Shown here: one piece after another, positions 3,997-25,204 of the stretch
How positions within the stretch are numbered: position 1 is the stretch's first letter
Layout: each line of letters starts with the position of its first letter
Origin: a virus
Virus record (IMG/VR): IMGVR_UViG_3300044615_000517
Coordinates: 1 to 25,204 of that record
Direction: 5' to 3' (one strand)
DNA length: 25,204 nt
Position numbers and translations under genes: made by a program
The notes under the pieces: model-generated
What the model saw: only the letters and a program-made list of their open reading frames with translations
Databases searched by the model: none
Told to the model about the DNA's origin: nothing

Positions 3997-6903
3997 TTAC
4001 AGCGTGACGTTGTAAGAAATCGCACTGGCTTCCGTGTCCCGGTAGACCATACCAACGCGCATCATGCCGACAATCACTGTGCTGTCGCTGATGGCGTCGC
4101 GCTGAACTTCAAACGTCCAGTTGCGCTTGTAACCCAGGCGCCATTGATCCCAGCGCACGGCCAGAATGCTGCCGGTCGTGTTATTGCTGGCGGTATCCAA
4201 GTCAACCTTGCCGGCAGTATTCGCCTTCAGCCCATAAGTGGCATCCTGGTTGGCACGGTGCATGTTGTTGGTCACAAGCACGTCATGGCCGTAGATACGG
4301 CGCAACAGACCCTCTTCGATGGTTGGCATCGAGTAGACATCCTGCGTCTTGAGTTCGGCCAGTTCCAGCGATTTCCAGTGCGTGAACATATCGAGAATAA
4401 AAGCGACGCGGCTTTTATCGACGGCGTTCTTCCCACCCAGCCCCATCAACTTGATGGTTTCCAGGTAGTCCTCAATCGTCAACGTACCAGCGCTGCGACT
4501 GTTGGCAGTGTTGGTCACAAGCGCCAACTTGCGGAAGCCGTCGAACAGCAGGAACGCCTCATTGCCGGCAGGGGTGCCACCGATGTCATTGATGTTGGTT
4601 GTGGCGCCGGTGGCGGTGTCGCCGTCGATGACCACATGTTCCAGCACCTCGGCGCCTTCCGCGATCAGGTCGCGGCGCAGTTCGGCAATCCACGGGATGA
4701 GCGAATCTTCTTCAAGTTCGCCGGAATAGTTGACAGCGGCGCCCAGCTTGGAAACGGTCAACGTCTTGTTGGTCGTCCCCATGCGGCTGGTGGTCACAGT
4801 CGGGGTAACACGGCCAGGGTTCGCATCCTGAGCGGTCGCCTGCGCAACCTTGTAGAAGGTCGGGCTGGTGGTGTTGACCGGAATCACAATGGATTCACTG
4901 CCCTGCGGCACAATCACGGTGGGGATGCGGCTGACAATCTGAGTTTGCAGACGAATCTTGTCCCAAAGTTGGGTACTGTAGGTCACGCCGATCCACTCGT
5001 CACCGAAACTGGAAAGCGTTGAGTAGTTCAACTCATTCGCCTTCATGGATTTAACGGCATCAGGCATAGCGCTCTTGGCGGCATTGTAGCCGGCGTCTTT
5101 GCCCTCGGCGGAATCCAGCAAGCGAATGGCAAGCGCACGGCGCAACCCATCAGAAGTGCCTGAACTCTCGCGCCCGTCGATACGCATACCCTTGGCGCTG
5201 TTCAGTACGCCGGACATAAACGCCAAGTCTTCGATGGATAACCCATCGTATTTGGCCTCAAACTTGGCAACATGCGGCGCACCACCAGGCAGGCGGCGGG
5301 CTTCGGCGGCTTCAGCCTTAGCAGCATCTGCGGCGCTCTTGGCGGCATCCAGTTCGGCTTGCATCGCCTCACGGGTGGCCTTGACGGCGGCATCGGCGGC
5401 ACTCTTGGCCGCATTCGTAATCTCGGCTTGGCGATCAGCCTCGGCCTTTGCGGCGGCGTCGCGCTGGGCGAATGCCACATTGACAGACTGAGCAACAAGC
5501 TCTGCAATCTGATTCTGTTCCATCTTCGTAACTCCTGTAGAAATGTCTTGTTGAGTGTCCGTCCCATTCGCTTTTGCCGATGCCCGCCCTTGTGACGATG
5601 TACGGTCGCCACCTATAGCTGCATCCTCTGGCGTCTGCGCAGAGTCGGTAAATATGTCATCAGGCAGGGTCAAACCCGCCTGGGCATAAACTGATTTAAG
5701 TACGGGCAACGCAACGGCGTATTGGTTCGCCGGTTGGCGCTTGCCCACGGCATCAAAAATGCTCAATTCCGCAACCGGCCAGTGGGTAATGTGGCCGTCG
5801 CGCTCTTTGCGCACCAAGTGTGTGATGCTGCCAGATGAAGCGCGAGCAATGCCTTGCTTGGCGGCATTCCAGACGCGCTGGGCATAATCGTTCGCCTTAT
5901 CCAAGATGACCTTGAACCAATGGCCTTTGCTGTCGGTACGGTCATACTTTGCCATGCCGATAAACTGCGGTTCACTGGACGGGTGGCCGGTTTCGTCGTA
6001 GCCGTGGTAGTAGACCGCTGGCACGGTGGCATACTGTTTGGCATAGATGTTCGTTTTCTGGCTGAAATATTCGCCGTCGCTGTCCTTGCCGCCGTTTGGG
6101 CCGCCAAACGGCACGCCCAGCACTTCAAGCGCCCATTCGCCATCGGATTTGATGGCACGCACCATACCGATGATCAGCGGTTGCGATCCGGTGGCGTCTA
6201 AATCAAATCCCTTCGCCGCCCCGCTCACTTCGATTTCAACTGTCACACCACCTTCACCCTCGCCATCAGCGTAGTCATCGCAAACCATATCGTCACCGGT
6301 CGCAAAGCCGTGCGCCTTGCACATGCCATCGCTATAGGCTTTGCACATCCCACACGATTTGTCACCATCGGCGGATCGGTAGTTTGGCGCGTCCATTCCG
6401 GCCTTGGCGGTGCGATCTACGTAGTCGGGAACGGTGGGCGCTTCGTCCGTTTCATTTGGCTCAAGTTCCATTGACGTAGAGACAATAGATTGCGCCGCCT
6501 TGCGCATATCCCGAATCCGTTGCCGGTCGCTTCGGTTGTTGCGATTACCTGCCTTCATGCCTTCGTCCTGCTCTCGTAAAATGCGATTCGCCCAAGTTCG
6601 CCCAGCATCGCCGCCCCAAAGTTGCCAGGCAATGTAACCAGCGGTTGGGCCACCGTCGCCTTCTTTTTCACCAGCGCCTCGGTTCTTCTCGTGGCGGCTG
6701 AAAAAGTTAGCCATGCGCTGGATCGTGTCCAAACTCACAGCGTCACCATTCGCCAAATTTGTCGCCCGTTGCACACCGCTGCCAATGCCCTGTTCGCTGG
6801 CTTCAGCATTAGACAAGCCACCGCGCCCCCACTCTTTTCGGAGGTCAAGCCCGCGGCGGGCGGCGCTGCGAACGTTTTGCGGTGGTACAAATGAATCAGC
6901 CAT
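3997..6903 (-). CDS. Prohead protease - scaffold - major capsid protein fusion
   Basis: A 968-residue protein combining functions usually split over two or three genes. Residues 1-110 are a helical phage domain (VRSAARRGLDLRKEWGRGG, then IAWQLWGGDAGRTWANRI). Residues 184-208 hold C-x2-C-x7-C-x12-C, a possible metal or Fe-S site. About 220-410 resembles a caudoviral prohead serine protease: candidate His300 in VYYHGYD, candidate Ser in ARASSGSITHL (353-363), then WPVAELSIFD and QPANQYAVALP. About 461-540 is an alanine/lysine-rich coiled coil acting as the scaffold (delta) region, and about 560-968 is an HK97-fold capsid subunit (DRTSS linker precedes; NELNYSTLSSFGDEWIG begins the mature-like part). 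The start at 6903 (MADSFVPPQ) is preferred over 6975, which would read through the terminator hairpin; its own ribosome site is poor. A second start is at 5523. Confidence 0.88.
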   Translation of the reverse strand: MADSFVPPQNVRSAARRGLDLRKEWGRGGLSNAEASEQGIGSGVQRATNLANGDAVSLDTIQRMANFFSRHEKNRGAGEKEGDGGPTAGYIAWQLWGGDAGRTWANRILREQDEGMKAGNRNNRSDRQRIRDMRKAAQSIVSTSMELEPNETDEAPTVPDYVDRTAKAGMDAPNYRSADGDKSCGMCKAYSDGMCKAHGFATGDDMVCDDYADGEGEGGVTVEIEVSGAAKGFDLDATGSQPLIIGMVRAIKSDGEWALEVLGVPFGGPNGGKDSDGEYFSQKTNIYAKQYATVPAVYYHGYDETGHPSSEPQFIGMAKYDRTDSKGHWFKVILDKANDYAQRVWNAAKQGIARASSGSITHLVRKERDGHITHWPVAELSIFDAVGKRQPANQYAVALPVLKSVYAQAGLTLPDDIFTDSAQTPEDAAIGGDRTSSQGRASAKANGTDTQQDISTGVTKMEQNQIAELVAQSVNVAFAQRDAAAKAEADRQAEITNAAKSAADAAVKATREAMQAELDAAKSAADAAKAEAAEARRLPGGAPHVAKFEAKYDGLSIEDLAFMSGVLNSAKGMRIDGRESSGTSDGLRRALAIRLLDSAEGKDAGYNAAKSAMPDAVKSMKANELNYSTLSSFGDEWIGVTYSTQLWDKIRLQTQIVSRIPTVIVPQGSESIVIPVNTTSPTFYKVAQATAQDANPGRVTPTVTTSRMGTTNKTLTVSKLGAAVNYSGELEEDSLIPWIAELRRDLIAEGAEVLEHVVIDGDTATGATTNINDIGGTPAGNEAFLLFDGFRKLALVTNTANSRSAGTLTIEDYLETIKLMGLGGKNAVDKSRVAFILDMFTHWKSLELAELKTQDVYSMPTIEEGLLRRIYGHDVLVTNNMHRANQDATYGLKANTAGKVDLDTASNNTTGSILAVRWDQWRLGYKRNWTFEVQRDAISDSTVIVGMMRVGMVYRDTEASAISYNVTL
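5532..5536 (-). promoter_or_regulatory. Internal ribosome binding site for a separate scaffold-capsid product
   Basis: On the minus strand AGGAG is followed by 8 bases and then ATG at 5523, in frame with the protease-capsid fusion (residue 461, MEQNQIAELV). The spacing and sequence are far better than at the fusion's own start at 6903. Initiation here would give a 508-residue scaffold-capsid protein (3997-5523) without the protease. This resembles the lambda C/Nu3 nested-start arrangement, but with the capsid subunit itself in the nested product. Confidence 0.7.
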
Positions 6904-6919
6904 AGTTAGAAAAATGAAC

Positions 6920-6969
6920 AAAAAAAGCGGCGTAACCAAACCGGATTTCTCCGATCTAATTACGCCGCT
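6920..6969 (-). terminator. Long hairpin with U-tract (intrinsic terminator or attenuator)
   Basis: Read on the minus strand, a perfect 10-base arm AGCGGCGTAA (6960-6969) pairs with TTACGCCGCT (6926-6935). Inside it is a 4x4 internal loop and then a 6-pair stem (6950-6955 with 6940-6945, one G-U pair) closed by a GAAA tetraloop (6946-6949). The outer stem is followed directly by seven T (6920-6926). This is a textbook Rho-independent terminator in form, ending transcription coming from the portal/gp10-like genes. It lies only 16 bases before the capsid fusion ATG and downstream of a promoter-like element at 7014, so it may also act as an attenuator or as the 3' end of a small RNA. Confidence 0.85.
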
Positions 6970-7013
6970 GGTCAAGTAAGACGGTTAGACGTTTAAGATA
7001 TTTTGTTGCGTTC

Positions 7014-11851: not shown

Positions 11852-12380
11852 GGCGCGTCACTTGCTCTAAAGGTTCGCCCGCCTCTAGTCGGTCTAATTG
11901 TTCGTCGGTAAGCTCAGATAGGTTAACGTTGAGATTCTGCTGCTTCACCGGCGCATCCAATCCCAGCAGCTTGCACCGGCGTTCGATGCACGACATCACG
12001 CCGGCGAGAAAGGCGGGGTTGCCGTCGCGCTGCTCTCTCTCCATTGTCGCCCTGACAACGTTGGGCTTGCCGTCCTTGCTCTTGCCGTCGCTCTCCTGGC
12101 GCGCCCTGGTGCGTTCGTTTTTCGACTGCTCCCATGCCGCCCAATATTCCCGCTCTAAAATGTCCAGGCGCTCCAACTCCCGTTGCTTTGCCTCATTCAT
12201 GTCCATAATGGACGATTCACGCCACCGTTGCTGAATCAGTTTCAGATCGTGATTAACCTGCCCCTGTGACACGCCAACCACCTCAGCAATGTCGCGCTGC
12301 GTGCGGCCTTGCAGGTATAAGCGCGTGATCTGGACTAAGTCTTCCTCACGCTGGAATGGTGTTCGTTTTCGTGCTGCCAT
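11832..12380 (-). CDS. terS: Terminase small subunit-like DNA-binding protein
   Basis: A 182-residue protein directly upstream of, and overlapping, the large terminase. An N-terminal helix-turn-helix is visible (about 20-55: ITRLYLQGRTQRDIAEVVGV, then SQGQVNHDLKLI), followed by a long charged coiled-coil region (EAKQRELERLDILEREYWAA and onward) for oligomerisation, and a C-terminal tail (LSELTDEQLDRLEAGEPLE) that may contact the large subunit. Small subunits recognise the packaging start and regulate the motor. The gene is divergent from the regulator gene at 12477; an AAGG ribosome site precedes its ATG, but I see no convincing promoter for it in the 96-base gap. Confidence 0.82.
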   Translation of the reverse strand: MAARKRTPFQREEDLVQITRLYLQGRTQRDIAEVVGVSQGQVNHDLKLIQQRWRESSIMDMNEAKQRELERLDILEREYWAAWEQSKNERTRARQESDGKSKDGKPNVVRATMEREQRDGNPAFLAGVMSCIERRCKLLGLDAPVKQQNLNVNLSELTDEQLDRLEAGEPLEQVTRRGQSPA

Positions 12381-12425
12381 ATCAACCTTAAAGAAATCGA
12401 CTTTTCTTACGAGTTTCGCCCCAAA

Positions 12426-12465
12426 CTGTAGACAAGGGCGCTCCCTTGTGATATACTATCTACAG
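12426..12465. promoter_or_regulatory. Nested inverted repeats over the promoter (candidate operator)
   Basis: Two inverted repeats are present. The inner one, ACAAGGG (12432-12438) and CCCTTGT (12443-12449) around CGCT, fills the spacer between -35 and -10. The outer one, CTGTAGA (12426-12432) and TCTACAG (12459-12465), covers the -35 box and the start of the transcript. The two are not concentric. The layout fits an operator at which a dimeric regulator, most likely the ribbon-helix-helix-like protein encoded next, blocks polymerase. Confidence 0.65.
12429..12457 (+). promoter_or_regulatory. Near-consensus promoter for the plus-strand cassette
   Basis: TAGACA (12429-12434) and TATACT (12452-12457) are separated by 17 bases, each one mismatch from the housekeeping-sigma consensus, and TG precedes the -10 as an extended element (TGATATACT). 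An AGGAGGT ribosome site at 12464-12470 and ATG at 12477 follow, so the leader is very short. It drives the regulator and radical SAM genes. Confidence 0.82.
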
Positions 12466-12476
12466 GAGGTACACAG

Positions 12477-12683
12477 ATGCAAGTTCGTAAATCAATCAAG
12501 TTATCCGCCGACCTTTGGCGAAAGCTTGAAGCCATCGCCGCCGATGTCCAGGCCATTGCGCCACCTGGACAGGGAACCGGACAGCCGTCTTGGCGCTCAC
12601 TGTTTAGCGAGATTGCAAAAGGCAATCTTATTGTTACACGAAAGGAACAAACTCATGACCAATCTCAAGACTCGAACCTATGA
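12477..12683 (+). CDS. Ribbon-helix-helix-like DNA-binding regulator
   Basis: A 68-residue protein. The first part, MQVRKSIKLSADLWRKLEAI, is the beta-strand plus first helix typical of ribbon-helix-helix repressors (alternating basic residues in the strand, then Leu/Trp/Leu/Ile helix). A second helix follows at about 38-48 (SWRSLFSEIAKG). The 9-residue insert with Pro/Gly between the helices is longer than usual. The start is fixed by a strong AGGAGGT ribosome site. It heads a two-gene plus-strand unit, with its 3' end overlapping the radical SAM gene by 29 bases, and it is the natural candidate to bind the inverted repeats in its own promoter (inference). Its C-terminal residues (KEQTHDQSQDSNL) look unstructured. 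Confidence 0.75.
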   Translation: MQVRKSIKLSADLWRKLEAIAADVQAIAPPGQGTGQPSWRSLFSEIAKGNLIVTRKEQTHDQSQDSNL

Positions 12684-13482
12684 ACTCGAAGACAACGGTT
12701 GGAGCGTCAAAGGTTGCTCCATTGTCTACGCTCCTCGCGGTCAAGCTGGCGAATATGCCAAGCTTGCGACGAACCCTTACCGCGGATGCGGCCATGCCTG
12801 CGCTTATTGTTATGTTCCGAAGGTTCTCAAAATGGATCGCCCCACCTTCGACGCTGGCGCATTCCCTCGCACTGACTTTCTCGACGCCTTACGCAAGGAC
12901 GCCCGCAAGTATCAGGCGCTTGGCATTACTGAACAGGTTATGCTCAGTTTCACCACTGACCCCTATCACCCCGGCAACAACTCGCTGACCCGTGACGTGT
13001 TGACCACGTTGCAGAGCTACGGACTTGGCGTCTGTACGCTGACCAAAGGTGGCAGTCGGTCGATTCGTGACATTGACATCTTTCGCCCTGACCGTGACGC
13101 CTTTGCCAGTACCTTGACCACACTTGACGACGATTTTAGCCGCAAGTGGGAGCGGGGCGCCCAACTCCCCGGCGACCGTATCGCAACGCTTAAGCGCTTT
13201 CACGACGCTGGGATCTTTACTTGGGTCAGCCTGGAACCGACACTCAACACCGAATCCAGTTTGGCAATTATCGAACACACACACGAGTTTGTTGACCTGT
13301 ACAAAATCGGTCGGGCCAACTACCTGCCCATGACCAACACGACCGATTGGGAATCGTACACCCACCGCATTTTGGAAATGGTCAACCGGCTTGGCGTCAA
13401 GCATTACATTAAAAAGGATCTTCAGCCCTTTTTACCCGCTGGTTACTACAACCCGAAATATATCAACCAGCATCACGGTTAA
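12655..13482 (+). CDS. Radical SAM protein, SPL/SplB-like (COG1533 type)
   Basis: A 275-residue protein. Cys45, Cys49 and Cys52 in NPYRGCGHACAYCYVPKVL form the CxxxCxxC cluster-binding motif with an aromatic before the last cysteine, as in radical SAM enzymes that bind a 4Fe-4S cluster and cleave SAM. The context NPYRGCxHxCxYCY matches the spore photoproduct lyase-like group. Further fold features: MLSFTTDPYHPGN (96-108), LTKGGSRSIRDID (129-141), FTWVSLEPTLN (188-198). The start at 12655 (AGGAAC ribosome site) is chosen; the frame is open to 12289, but only antisense to the terminase. It is co-transcribed with the regulator and overlaps the opposite-strand methyltransferase-like gene by 20 bases at the 3' ends. 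The substrate is unknown: DNA-lesion repair or base/nucleotide modification are possibilities. Confidence 0.9.
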   Translation: MTNLKTRTYELEDNGWSVKGCSIVYAPRGQAGEYAKLATNPYRGCGHACAYCYVPKVLKMDRPTFDAGAFPRTDFLDALRKDARKYQALGITEQVMLSFTTDPYHPGNNSLTRDVLTTLQSYGLGVCTLTKGGSRSIRDIDIFRPDRDAFASTLTTLDDDFSRKWERGAQLPGDRIATLKRFHDAGIFTWVSLEPTLNTESSLAIIEHTHEFVDLYKIGRANYLPMTNTTDWESYTHRILEMVNRLGVKHYIKKDLQPFLPAGYYNPKYINQHHG

Positions 13483-21210: not shown

Positions 21211-21275
21211 AGCGCGTACACCCCATAGCTAACGGCGCCAACCAGCGCCAAACAGTACACGCCCAGCCAGGTCAT
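21201..21275 (-). CDS. 24-residue single-helix membrane peptide
   Basis: The ATG shares the ATGA overlap with the stop of the 45-residue peptide gene. The product MTWLGVYCLALVGAVSYGVY then ALWA is one hydrophobic helix with no charge. Alternative in-frame start 21296 would give 31 residues. The gene overlaps the start of the following tail protein by 10 bases. Given its size it could be spurious, but the coupled start and hydrophobicity support it. Confidence 0.45.
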   Translation of the reverse strand: MTWLGVYCLALVGAVSYGVYALWA

Positions 21276-21409
21276 TGCAGCAATCCTGGCAACCATGCCA
21301 GATCCACGCCTTGCCACAATGCCAGGCCGATCAACGACGCCACGCCGACGATCATTGCAATGCGGGTTGGCGTGTCTGCCGTCCGCCACGCGTCTCGAAG
21401 TAGTTGCAT
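21272..21409 (-). CDS. 45-residue single-helix membrane peptide
   Basis: A strong GGAGG ribosome site 5 bases before the ATG, and a promoter 37 bases upstream, support this gene, which is short but well placed as the first of its transcript. The product, MQLLRDAWRTADTPTRIAMI continuing to WLPGLLQ, has a basic N-terminus and one membrane helix at about residues 17-33. A role in lysis timing or membrane signalling is possible because of the neighbouring lysis-type genes, but this is inference. Confidence 0.72.
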   Translation of the reverse strand: MQLLRDAWRTADTPTRIAMIVGVASLIGLALWQGVDLAWLPGLLQ

Positions 21410-21445: not shown

Positions 21446-21474
21446 AGTATAGCACAGGTTTTCGGAAAGTTCAA
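21446..21474 (-). promoter_or_regulatory. Promoter for the small-membrane-peptide/tail-fibre unit
   Basis: On the minus strand TTGAAC (21469-21474) and TATACT (21446-21451) are 17 bases apart, with TGTGC just before the -10 giving an extended TGn element. It lies in the 83-base gap after the phosphoesterase gene and drives the block starting at 21409. Confidence 0.78.
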
Positions 21475-21477
21475 TGG

Positions 21478-21496
21478 GTAACTACAATGTAATTAC
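21478..21496. promoter_or_regulatory. Imperfect inverted repeat upstream of the promoter
   Basis: GTAACTACA (21478-21486) and TGTAATTAC (21488-21496) are complementary at 8 of 9 positions around one base. The site abuts the -35 box and overlaps the end of the phosphoesterase gene. It could be an operator or activator site, or chance. Confidence 0.35.
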
Positions 21497-22497
21497 AGGC
21501 TAAAATACTGCTTTCCGATCATCGCCTTGTAATCCGGCGTAAACAGTACCGGCTCAATCTGCACGGCCCCATCACGCACAACGAACAGCGTAACGCCTTG
21601 CACCCAATCTGGATCAACCATGTATTCTGGGTCGAGCGTACACATGCAAGGCGTCTCCTGACCTACGCTATAACCTGTGCCGATGCGTGTCTGAAAGCGG
21701 CCCGCTCTATGCACATGGCCGGTAATGGTAGAGATGCTGTAGCGCCGTTGCTCCTGTTCCAACCGTGCCGTGTAGCCCGCCCACTTGCTGACGCGGGTGC
21801 CATGCGTGACTTCCAACACATGGCCGAACCGTACCCGCAATTCGGCGTACTCTATCCCGTAGCGGCGCAACTGCATCAACTCTGGCAACTCAAGCGCTGC
21901 AATCCCAAATAGATCGGGATTCGCCCAGAGCTTGCGCCGTAGTCGGTCTTCGTGGTTCCCCGGCACTTTGATTTTGCGTGCCTTGCCCAATGCCGCATTT
22001 AGTGGAGCAACGCATTCGACATGCCACGTATCAATCTCGTCTTGCGTTCTGGCGGTGCGATTCGGGTTTTTGTCGAAGCGGCTCAACTGGTAGAAATCCA
22101 CGTCATCGCCGTTGTAAATCGCTACGTCCGGTTGCCACCACTTCGCAATCTTGGCAGCCAGGGCGATGGCGTTGCGGTCATGGTAGGGCGCATGAATGTC
22201 GCTGAACACAATGCCGCTCACGTTGCCATTGACGGTGATGGTGCGTTGATATTCCCGCGCCGCCGTCCCCAGCTTCTTACGGATGCGCTCACGTTGCTCA
22301 GGGTTGCGGTTGAACAGCCCACGCCACGCGGCGCTCGTCAGGTCAATGTCAAAGGCGTCATTGACGGCTCTGCCAACGTTGGCGAGTGTGTCAAATCGTG
22401 GCGCCAGTTCAAGCGCCTTTGCAAACAGCTCTGTGTTATCTCTCTGTGGTTCGGTGTCGGCTGCGATGTCGTGAGCGGTGTTCTGCTCAGTCATCAT
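21493..22497 (-). CDS. Calcineurin-like metallophosphoesterase
   Basis: A 334-residue protein. The dinuclear metal site is complete: SDIHAP (99-104), NGDDVD (129-134), VPGNHED (178-184), THG (231-233) and TGHVH (259-263). Enzymes with this site hydrolyse phosphoesters in DNA, RNA, proteins or nucleotides; phages use them for DNA processing or nucleotide turnover. Residues 22-75 (FAKALELAPRFDTLANVGRA; WRGLFNRNPEQRERIRKKLG) are helical and look like a small DNA-binding domain, an N-terminal extension seen in phage members. It lies 3 bases after the holin-like gene. The substrate is unknown. Confidence 0.9.
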   Translation of the reverse strand: MMTEQNTAHDIAADTEPQRDNTELFAKALELAPRFDTLANVGRAVNDAFDIDLTSAAWRGLFNRNPEQRERIRKKLGTAAREYQRTITVNGNVSGIVFSDIHAPYHDRNAIALAAKIAKWWQPDVAIYNGDDVDFYQLSRFDKNPNRTARTQDEIDTWHVECVAPLNAALGKARKIKVPGNHEDRLRRKLWANPDLFGIAALELPELMQLRRYGIEYAELRVRFGHVLEVTHGTRVSKWAGYTARLEQEQRRYSISTITGHVHRAGRFQTRIGTGYSVGQETPCMCTLDPEYMVDPDWVQGVTLFVVRDGAVQIEPVLFTPDYKAMIGKQYFSL

Positions 22498-22500
22498 TGA

Positions 22501-22797
22501 TTATGCCCTCAATCTCCGCCACAAATGCCACGCGTGAAAAATTAAAGCCGCCAGTAACATAAATCGGGTGGCAACAATCCAAGCGCGAAGATCCTCAATG
22601 TCGAGTACCGGATCGGTGCCGGTTGTCAGTACCAGTAACACCATCGTGGCAAATTCGGCAAAGAAGCATAGCGCCTGTGATAGCGCCACGTTGGTGCGTC
22701 GCCGCATGGCCCAGAACAGGAGAGATAGCCCAGCCACCAACAGAAACGCTGCGGCCAGAATGGGGTAGAGGATGCTCATAATCAAGCGAATGTCCAT
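22501..22797 (-). CDS. Holin-like three-helix membrane protein
   Basis: A 98-residue protein with three hydrophobic segments: about 8-30 (MSILYPILAAAFLLVAGLSL), 41-59 (QALCFFAEFATMVLLVLTT) and 71-91 (RAWIVATRFMLLAALIFHAW). RRR after the first and RR at the C-terminus put both sides in the cytoplasm, giving an outside-N, inside-C topology as in class I holins. It lies close to the endolysin and CHAT genes, so it is the best holin candidate, although no conserved holin motif is visible. The start lies one base after the upstream stop and has a GGGGGGG ribosome site. Confidence 0.65.
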   Translation of the reverse strand: MDIRLIMSILYPILAAAFLLVAGLSLLFWAMRRRTNVALSQALCFFAEFATMVLLVLTTGTDPVLDIEDLRAWIVATRFMLLAALIFHAWHLWRRLRA

Positions 22798-22798
22798 A

Positions 22799-23575
22799 TT
22801 ACCCCCCCATCGCCATCAAAACATACAGCCCATAGCCCAGTAGCAGCGCAATGACAACCAGCGCCGCAACAATCCGGTTTGACTGGCGTTCGCTCAGTAA
22901 TGGCTTTGCTACATTCCCGGCGCGCTCAATTTGCTCCACGCGCCTGGTGAGTAGGATAATCTCCATTTTTGTGCGCTGCTCACTGAGCGCTATTTCGTTC
23001 TGTAGTGCATAGATCGCCTTCGTCAAATCTTGCATTTGAGTAGCCAGCCGATCATCAATACGTTCCTCTCGCATGGTATTTTTCTCCCCTATACTGCTAG
23101 GAAAATAGCGCAGAGGCGTTGTACCGGCTGGTGCCGCCGAACGAACAGCCCGCAATATGTTTCCGACATTCAAGTAATTGCGCGCCACCAGGGACGCGGT
23201 ACGCCATGCTGCGATGTCGGCAATCTCGGTGATGTAGGCGTAGCAATCGTGTGCGTAAATGGTCTGTAGCCGGTTAACAAACAGCCCGGATTCGCACGAG
23301 TTAAAAAAGCTCCACTCGACGTTGGCGCTGGACAGGTATTGCGCCAGCGCGTCAACCGGCAACAGATAGTCGTTCGATAGCAGTAGGCCACGTTCCGAAG
23401 CGTGACCGGCAAACCAAAAGCCCTCTACATCGTCGGTAAGCGCATTCTGTAGCGTCGCTTCGGACACGTCACCTTGTACCAAAATCGGACGGTGGAAGCA
23501 GCTTACAATGGCGGCTACTTCGTTGTCCAGCGTTGTCAGTGCCGGTTGACGTGGGGCGACAATGAGGATGCTCAT
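22799..23575 (-). CDS. CHAT (caspase-like) putative protease with coiled coil and membrane anchor
   Basis: A 258-residue protein starting MSILIVAPRQPALTT; this ATG overlaps the endolysin stop as ATGA, and the 46 residues upstream in the same frame are antisense-free but lie in the endolysin gene. Residues 51-64 (EGFWFAGHASERGL) and 88-97 (WSFFNSCESG) are the CHAT signatures: candidate catalytic His58 and Cys94, with GLLLS between them as in CHAT enzymes. The rest of the fold continues to about 150 (CYAYITEIADIAAWRTASLV; VGNILRAVRSAA). About 168-222 is a charged coiled coil, and 234-254 (RIVAALVVIALLLGYGLYVL) a C-terminal membrane helix that by the positive-inside rule leaves the protease domain in the cytoplasm. 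Its place next to the endolysin suggests a role in lysis or host killing; no substrate can be read. Confidence 0.82.
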   Translation of the reverse strand: MSILIVAPRQPALTTLDNEVAAIVSCFHRPILVQGDVSEATLQNALTDDVEGFWFAGHASERGLLLSNDYLLPVDALAQYLSSANVEWSFFNSCESGLFVNRLQTIYAHDCYAYITEIADIAAWRTASLVARNYLNVGNILRAVRSAAPAGTTPLRYFPSSIGEKNTMREERIDDRLATQMQDLTKAIYALQNEIALSEQRTKMEIILLTRRVEQIERAGNVAKPLLSERQSNRIVAALVVIALLLGYGLYVLMAMGG

Positions 23576-25155
23576 TTGCCGCATTCTTTCATCAAATCCG
23601 CCACCCGTCGCGACCATGCCGCCCCGTACAATCGCCACCCGTCGATCTTGGTGTAGAACTCTAACCGCAATGCTAGGTAGCGGTAAGCGCTGCTCTCCGA
23701 CTGCTGTAGCCACCGTTGCGCCTTGCCGACGCCCGCATTGACGGCACTATCGAACACAACCAGATTGAGCGGCCAGGGCAACTTGTCAGCGCCGGAACGT
23801 TGCCAGTAATCACGTTCGTAAATTTGCACGGCTTGCTCTTTGGTTAGGTTGACAATATCCACGGTTGGATAACTGCCGGCGCTGATACCAAACTTTGTGC
23901 CTTTGAATTCACCGACGCCCACTTTGCCACCGGTGTAATTGCCTGGATCGTTCTTGTCGGCGGAAAAACCACCCTCCCAGCGCAAAACGAATTCGATAGC
24001 CTTTTGCCAGTCGGTGCGTTGATCCTGCGTTGATTCAATGCTGATCGTCGGCTTGGCACGACTCACCCATGTCGCCAACATCCAGCCGGTTAGCGCGCCG
24101 TAGGCGACTTGCAGCCAGCCGTCACGCTGGCCGGTGACAGTGACTTTTTCACCGGTCACAACCTCGGCCCGCACATTGCTATTTGTATCAGGTTCCGCAC
24201 GGAGCCGCAGAAAAGGCGATGCGGTGACATAACCTGTCCACTGCTCTGGCGCTGGCAACACTTGTGGCTGTGCCTCTCGCCATTGATAGCCAAGCGCGAC
24301 GGCGGCGCGTAGGTCGTCATGCGCCTGGTTGCATTGCGACATATCCCACCGGCTATCGTGGCGCGCCCAACGGAACAACGCAACGCAGCGGATCTGCTGG
24401 TTTCCCGGTTTGGCGTTCCATTGCTCAATCTGTTGATACAGCGCTTGCACCCACCCCGCCTGATAGGTTGCCCACGGCTGATTACCGTTGGCCTCCGTCA
24501 CCATGACAGGTAAGTGGCGCATATATAGCGGGATTGCCGCCATGAACTCCCAAAGCGTCTCCCAACCGCTGTAATGATGATTCCACGGCGCATCCATCAC
24601 GGCGCCAGTTACAAACGCACTAGGCGCATAACCGCGCGTGTAGGCGTGCAGGCAGATCCAGTCCACCAGGCCGTCAAGCGTCAGTAACATTTGGCGAAGC
24701 TGCAAAATCCAGTCCCGCGCATCCGGCGTCGAAGCATTCCACGGCGCAACAGCCTGCGGTGCAATCTTGACGTGCGGCGCAACGGCCTTGATTGCCTTGT
24801 AGCATTGCCGGTAGCAATCCAGATAACTGGCGAGGCTGATAGGCTGGTTGGTCGGCCATTCCCACTCAAGCGCGATTTCGTTGCCTATCACCAGCCACTC
24901 AACGCCTCGGCTTGCGGCAACCCAGGCGGCGCACTTCTGCGCAAATTCGGCGTAGCGGTCGGGGGTGGGGATTGTACCCGCGGGGGCGTAGCCGTTGTTG
25001 ATCCTGACGATTACGCCCAGCCCCTGATCGGCGTAGCGCCGGTAATCGCCTGGTTGGCTATCGGCGGTTTCGGTAAACACAACCCAGCCGCGTCTGCTGA
25101 GGAGGTGTTCGCCGCCGGGATCATGGATGCCGTACAAAAACTTAGAGGTTGACAT
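23572..25155 (-). CDS. Multidomain endolysin: clan GH-A glycosidase, SH3, GH108
   Basis: A 527-residue protein. Residues 1-295 form a TIM-barrel glycosidase: IGNEI (90-94, acid/base Glu93) and VTEANG (219-224, nucleophile Glu221) are the clan GH-A pair. Residues 305-367 are a bacterial SH3 domain (LRLRAEPDTNSNVRAEVVTG, GWLQVAYGALTGWML), a wall-binding module. Residues 383-527 are GH108-type lysozyme: FVLRWEGGFSADKNDPG with catalytic Glu394, then DSAVNAGVGKAQRWLQ. The ATG at 25155, with AAGGTG upstream, is preferred over GTG at 25161; the frame is open to the edge. No signal peptide, so a holin is required. The start overlaps a partial upstream gene. Confidence 0.9.
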   Translation of the reverse strand: MSTSKFLYGIHDPGGEHLLSRRGWVVFTETADSQPGDYRRYADQGLGVIVRINNGYAPAGTIPTPDRYAEFAQKCAAWVAASRGVEWLVIGNEIALEWEWPTNQPISLASYLDCYRQCYKAIKAVAPHVKIAPQAVAPWNASTPDARDWILQLRQMLLTLDGLVDWICLHAYTRGYAPSAFVTGAVMDAPWNHHYSGWETLWEFMAAIPLYMRHLPVMVTEANGNQPWATYQAGWVQALYQQIEQWNAKPGNQQIRCVALFRWARHDSRWDMSQCNQAHDDLRAAVALGYQWREAQPQVLPAPEQWTGYVTASPFLRLRAEPDTNSNVRAEVVTGEKVTVTGQRDGWLQVAYGALTGWMLATWVSRAKPTISIESTQDQRTDWQKAIEFVLRWEGGFSADKNDPGNYTGGKVGVGEFKGTKFGISAGSYPTVDIVNLTKEQAVQIYERDYWQRSGADKLPWPLNLVVFDSAVNAGVGKAQRWLQQSESSAYRYLALRLEFYTKIDGWRLYGAAWSRRVADLMKECGK

Positions 25156-25204
25156 TTTCACCTTCCCACGGTGCGGCGATTGGCCCCCACCATCGTCCGA
25201 TATG
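25142..25204 (-). CDS. C-terminal end of an unknown gene (cut by window edge)
   Basis: The frame in phase with the edge reads HIGRWWGPIAAPWEGENVNL and then TAA, overlapping the endolysin start by 14 bases. The tryptophan-rich ending looks like real protein and such overlaps are normal in this operon, but 20 residues cannot identify a family, and the endolysin frame is also open here. Confidence 0.4.
   Translation of the reverse strand, partial: HIGRWWGPIAAPWEGENVNL

Follow-up and report, generated by a model that had tools for sequence, protein, structure and literature searches.

A caspase-like CHAT protein with a predicted C-terminal membrane anchor in the late/lysis cassette of a phage, and its relatives in other phages

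The CHAT proteases known to us come from host immune systems and cell-death pathways. SAVED-CHAT of type III CRISPR (PDB 8tl0) is a SAVED-domain-activated filament of host immunity. TPR-CHAT/Csx29 (Craspase) of type III-E CRISPR is likewise a CHAT-type cysteine protease, and works with Cas7-11 and target RNA through its TPR repeats (PMC9729208, PMC10028731). In a literature search that reached few subscription journals, no account of a CHAT or caspase-like protein with a part in phage lysis turned up. Here we describe a gene from a phage sequence of 25,204 nucleotides (IMG/VR record IMGVR_UViG_3300044615_000517), referred to below as the window. Fold, dyad, homologues and synteny give good support for reading its product as a protease of the CHAT/caspase type, anchored in the membrane at its C-terminus and encoded in a late/lysis cassette of the phage.

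The gene lies at positions 22799-23575, the coordinates given in a preliminary description of this DNA, and is read on the minus strand (23575 to 22799), as are the other genes of the cassette. According to the open reading frame, the fold search and an alignment of eight homologues, its 258-aa product consists of a CHAT domain, a long helix (coiled coil) and a transmembrane (TM) segment. The ATG of the gene (23575-23573) shares bases with the TGA of the endolysin gene (23572-25161, minus strand), which bears out the ATGA coupling reported earlier; Pfam and PHROG matches divide the endolysin into a GH39-like N-terminus (weak), SH3_3 and Glyco_hydro_108. The next gene starts at 22797, one base past the CHAT TAA, and encodes a holin-like protein, again in agreement with the preliminary description. 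This 98-aa protein (22501-22797, minus strand) has three hydrophobic segments and was assigned three TM segments on the basis of hydropathy and a model with three helices (pLDDT 68). Its gene is syntenic with the CHAT gene in 5/8 phages; the protein matched no family at threshold, including any known holin family. The gene run continues with a metallophosphoesterase (21493-22497, minus strand; PF00149, phrog_221). Between it and a small one-TM ORF of 45 aa (21272-21409, minus strand; from translation) lies a sigma-70-like promoter, TTGAAC-17-TATACT (21446-21474, minus strand), identified by consensus match only. The small ORF resembles, by eye, ORFs that follow the CHAT genes of two relatives introduced below (L001 and L042). 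Elsewhere in the window we noted a structural protein of the virion that matches arabinofuranosidase B-like PF09206 (20272-21210, minus strand), a single 992-aa ORF that looks like a head protease/scaffold region fused to a major capsid protein (3997-6975, minus strand), and an ORF on the plus strand, opposite to the late genes (12289-13482), with the cysteine cluster CGHACAYC and a radical SAM-like look.

The CHAT domain spans residues 1-163 (23087-23575, minus strand). An AlphaFold2 model built with the eight homologues reached block pLDDT values of 84-93 over residues 1-160, and the best solved match of its residues 1-163 was SAVED-CHAT 8tl0 (Foldseek E 2.3e-7), to which VIA-align superposed 158 residues at 2.5 A with a Z of 17.4. 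The next structural matches were procaspases/caspases, gingipain, legumain and separase, with Z about 12. CHAT proteases carry a His/Cys dyad at the ends of the core strands. Both residues of the proposed dyad were found in the translation, His58 in GHASERGLLLS (codon 23402-23404, minus strand) and Cys94 in FFNSCESG (codon 23294-23296, minus strand). A profile of the eight homologues searched against the PDB returned SAVED-CHAT (E 4.5e-4); in this alignment His58, predicted to be catalytic, fell on the GH of SAVED-CHAT, and Cys94, the predicted nucleophile, on its NAC cysteine. The Pfam CHAT profile (PF12770, clan CD) scored 15.8 bits on the window protein, below the cut-off of 24, which was passed by two relatives, L039 (27.8 bits) and L042 (25.3 bits). 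The model fold, the profile match to SAVED-CHAT and the relatives above the Pfam threshold together settle the CHAT assignment, and we consider the caspase-like fold and the His/Cys dyad close to certain. Behind this domain, the coiled coil of the preliminary description was recovered as a long predicted helical region (residues 163-222) of low confidence (pLDDT about 50-60). The single C-terminal TM segment was predicted by Kyte-Doolittle hydropathy at residues 235-253 (22817-22873, minus strand), within a modelled helix of residues 229-256.

Pattern and profile searches of IMG/VR yielded seven relatives (L001, L003, L008, L020, L029, L039 and L042), which form a family of eight with the window protein. 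Identities ranged from 77% (L001) down to about 21%, and an HMM of the close family found L039 at 1e-13 and L042 at 1e-15. The motifs W-F-x-G-H and N-[ST]-C were kept in all relatives, and the dyad was invariant in the alignment (8/8). The preliminary description had named a fold other than caspase-like, or loss of the dyad in homologues, as evidence against a CHAT protein; structure prediction and fold search gave a caspase-like core, and no homologue had lost the dyad. Behind the CHAT half, all eight proteins have a charged and probably helical segment with a hydrophobic end. The hydropathy threshold for a TM segment was reached by seven of them, the C-terminal stretch of L008, where the layout is weakest, falling below it. 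Over residues 78-163, dN/dS between L001 and L003 was about 0.06, and this part of the CHAT domain evolves under purifying selection. The invariant dyad, the low dN/dS and the caspase-like fold show that the CHAT observation is more than chance. Dyad conservation and purifying selection also make it likely that the window protein is a proteolytically active CHAT protease.

In a library of viral structures, the best match of the whole model was an unnamed 264-aa viral protein (UniProt A0A1P8DJ94; Foldseek E 8.9e-16). It is likely another family member as judged from the models, and the CHAT family is therefore probably wider than the eight. Single-sequence searches of phage and plasmid collections returned no significant relatives. 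A gapped DNA pattern picked out four stretches in genome contigs, which were rejected, as none gave a CHAT protein on translation and their genomes had no match. Among the PADLOC defence profiles there was no match for the window protein and only noise for the relatives, and no NCBIfam family rose above noise.

The preliminary description had tied its reading to lysis genes near the homologues, and this association held in part. An endolysin gene lies directly upstream in three of the eight phages (the window, L001 and L003) and the same multi-TM gene directly downstream in five (the window, L001, L029, L039 and L042). No endolysin could be recognised beside the CHAT gene in L008, L020, L029, L039 and L042, and L003, L008 and L020 lack the 3-TM gene. 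Both neighbours occur together in the window and L001, and L003 combines an endolysin with a small TM ORF. The distant multi-TM proteins share only 19-25% identity and entered the alignment because of their gene position, so that synteny and hydropathy outweigh the sequence match here. The CHAT genes of L042 and L020 stand just upstream of the genes for the small and large terminase subunits (terS/terL), a slot that in lambda-like phages is the site of lysis genes. The CHAT gene of L039 shares bases of its start codon with the stop codon of a tail-region gene (ATGA). In L008, genes for an SH3-like and a small TM protein come upstream of the CHAT gene, and a metallophosphoesterase gene of the same kind as in the window comes downstream. 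These contexts place the CHAT gene in late modules, many but not all of which have recognisable lysis genes, and the link of the family to lysis is good but not universal. The three adjacent endolysins differ in catalytic domain (Muramidase in L001, Glyco_hydro_108 otherwise). A dependence of CHAT type on endolysin catalytic type was rejected because L003 pairs Glyco_hydro_108 with an L001-type CHAT N-terminus.

Modules recombine at the CHAT/anchor junction: L001 has its CHAT half in common with L003 and its anchor in common with the window protein. A mosaic exchange was also seen between the window (23345-24030) and L001 (L001:1260-2007), where the endolysin catalytic domain (Glyco_hydro_108 in the window, Muramidase in L001) and the first 77 CHAT codons differ and the flanking coding regions are nearly identical. 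A search for a free-standing copy of the anchor module found none. XhlA (PF10779), the helix-plus-C-terminal-TM lysis protein of Bacillus PBSX, has a general layout like that of the C-terminal module but lacks a CHAT domain. It was rejected as a source of the anchor module, since none of the eight records matched its profile even with E allowed up to 5.

The same junction carries features that suggest a two-product site, a point absent from the preliminary description. In the window, a Shine-Dalgarno-like (SD-like) sequence, AGGGGAG (23084-23090, minus strand), precedes an internal ATG from which a putative 91-aa helix-TM protein would start at Met168 (22799-23074, minus strand). The predicted anti-SD duplex energy is -8.3 kcal/mol at AGGGGAG versus -1.7 at the gene's own ATGA-coupled start. 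With the junction codon picked by eye, an ATG or GTG with an SD energy of -7.0 or better was present at the junction in seven of the eight homologues, compared with 7/88 of the other internal ATG/GTG codons. The residues before the junction start vary (GEKNT, GGQR, GRGA, DGSK, GGEKKK, AEVKKK). When synonymous codons were reshuffled with the amino acids fixed, the internal SD was not exceptional (P 0.2-0.8); because of this null result and the choice of the spot by eye, the SD evidence is suggestive only.

At the same place, L039 and L042, the most distant of the relatives, each contain a run of ten A (A10; L048:7337-7346 in record G005 and L049:2408-2417 in record G006). The next-longest A/T run is 5 in L039 (16 kb, 64% G+C), where Lys is encoded by AAA six times versus AAG 49 times, and 7 in L042 (10 kb, 59% G+C). 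A slip of one base in either direction would end translation within about 16 codons and yield a predicted anchor-free CHAT protein, and we regard these runs as candidate sites of programmed slippage. Both devices have precedents: poly-A transcriptional slippage gives two length variants of the type VI secretion protein tssM (PMC4256274), and some endolysins have internal translation starts (PMC4777826, PMC12203907).

The tools gave us fold, dyad conservation, a hydrophobic C-terminus, gene order and purifying selection; proteolytic activity, topology, two products, a substrate and, from gene order, a role in lysis are what we infer. Our preferred reading, to which we assign a probability of roughly 0.45, is that the late/lysis module includes a tethered CHAT protease, which acts at the membrane, helps to set the terminal membrane event and occurs in two length forms. 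The gene product would be a caspase-like cysteine protease of the CHAT family (clan CD) that has the His58/Cys94 dyad, is expressed late in infection with the endolysin and the 3-TM holin-like protein, and is tethered to the cytoplasmic side of the membrane through its C-terminal helix and TM anchor. With the anchor, the protease might oligomerise and cleave a protein close to the membrane, candidates being the linked 3-TM protein, one of its regulators or a protein of the host envelope; this cleavage would help to determine or set off the terminal membrane event. The two length forms, a free helix-TM form from Met168 in the window phage and an anchor-free CHAT protein by slippage on the A10 run in L039/L042, would make the junction a control point. 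A bolder proposal, which we consider rather unlikely, is that this phage family times or triggers lysis with a protease-pore pair made of the tethered CHAT protease and its small multi-TM partner, with a switch at the junction, by recoding or an internal start, setting the ratio of anchored to shorter product.

As the main rival we see an accessory, moron-like gene with a part in counter-defence or exclusion. In this somewhat doubtful alternative its membrane CHAT protease would cleave a host defence component or exclude superinfecting phages, and the gene would simply travel with the late operon, placed between the genes for lysis and terminase. The sparse distribution of the family, its varying position (by the endolysin, before terS, after tail genes or by the metallophosphoesterase) and the known part of CHAT proteases in bacterial defence (PMC9729208, PMC10028731) are consistent with such cargo. 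Translational coupling to endolysin or tail-region genes and the recurrent multi-TM neighbour (5/8) argue against it, as does the PADLOC result with no match above noise.

The junction also bears on a quite improbable alternative, that the helix-TM protein is holin-like and CHAT serves it as a regulatory head without catalysis; the long form would then restrain the short one as in dual-start holins. A strong SD-like sequence at the internal start with a weak SD at the main start, a single TM segment with a long helix, and a multi-TM partner speak for it. However, His and Cys are invariant down to 21% identity, unlike in a pseudo-enzyme, and the A10 run in two relatives is predicted to free the CHAT half instead. 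The late-gene position, and the L039 start that overlaps a tail-region stop, might point to a virion or assembly protease acting in particle maturation and not at the host membrane. We regard this as very improbable, given the C-terminal membrane anchor, the neighbouring membrane genes and contexts tied to no single head or tail gene.

If the preferred reading of a tethered, lysis-linked protease is true, a conserved membrane-anchored CHAT protease of phages would extend the holin/endolysin scheme by a step of proteolysis; alternatively, phage CHAT might serve as a weapon at the membrane against pathways of the host. The window and at least seven other environmental phages hint at the use of a death-type protease by some phages late in infection. 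At the junction, two-product coding could be tested in a protein family that would use two different devices at one and the same place.

Compared with described systems, the two length forms per gene predicted here would arise by the same two devices as in endolysins with internal starts and in tssM, proteins unrelated to the CHAT-anchor family. LysF1b of Mycobacterium F1 phages, a holin-like single-TM protein paired with a multi-TM protein, both of which are needed for efficient lysis (PMC13056207), is like the window protein a single-TM protein of a lysis cassette beside a multi-TM partner, but its TM segment is N-terminal and it has no protease domain. The transmembrane anti-sigma factor DdvA (PDB 8rw5) matched residues 1-159 in structure (Z 12.4) and is likewise a membrane protein; as a cellular anti-sigma factor it belongs to another setting than phage CHAT. 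Unlike TPR-CHAT/Csx29, the window protein has no TPR. SAVED-CHAT remains the closest solved fold, with its His and Cys aligned to those of the window protein, and in contrast to that SAVED-activated filament the locus described here presents a minimal, phage-encoded CHAT with a membrane anchor.
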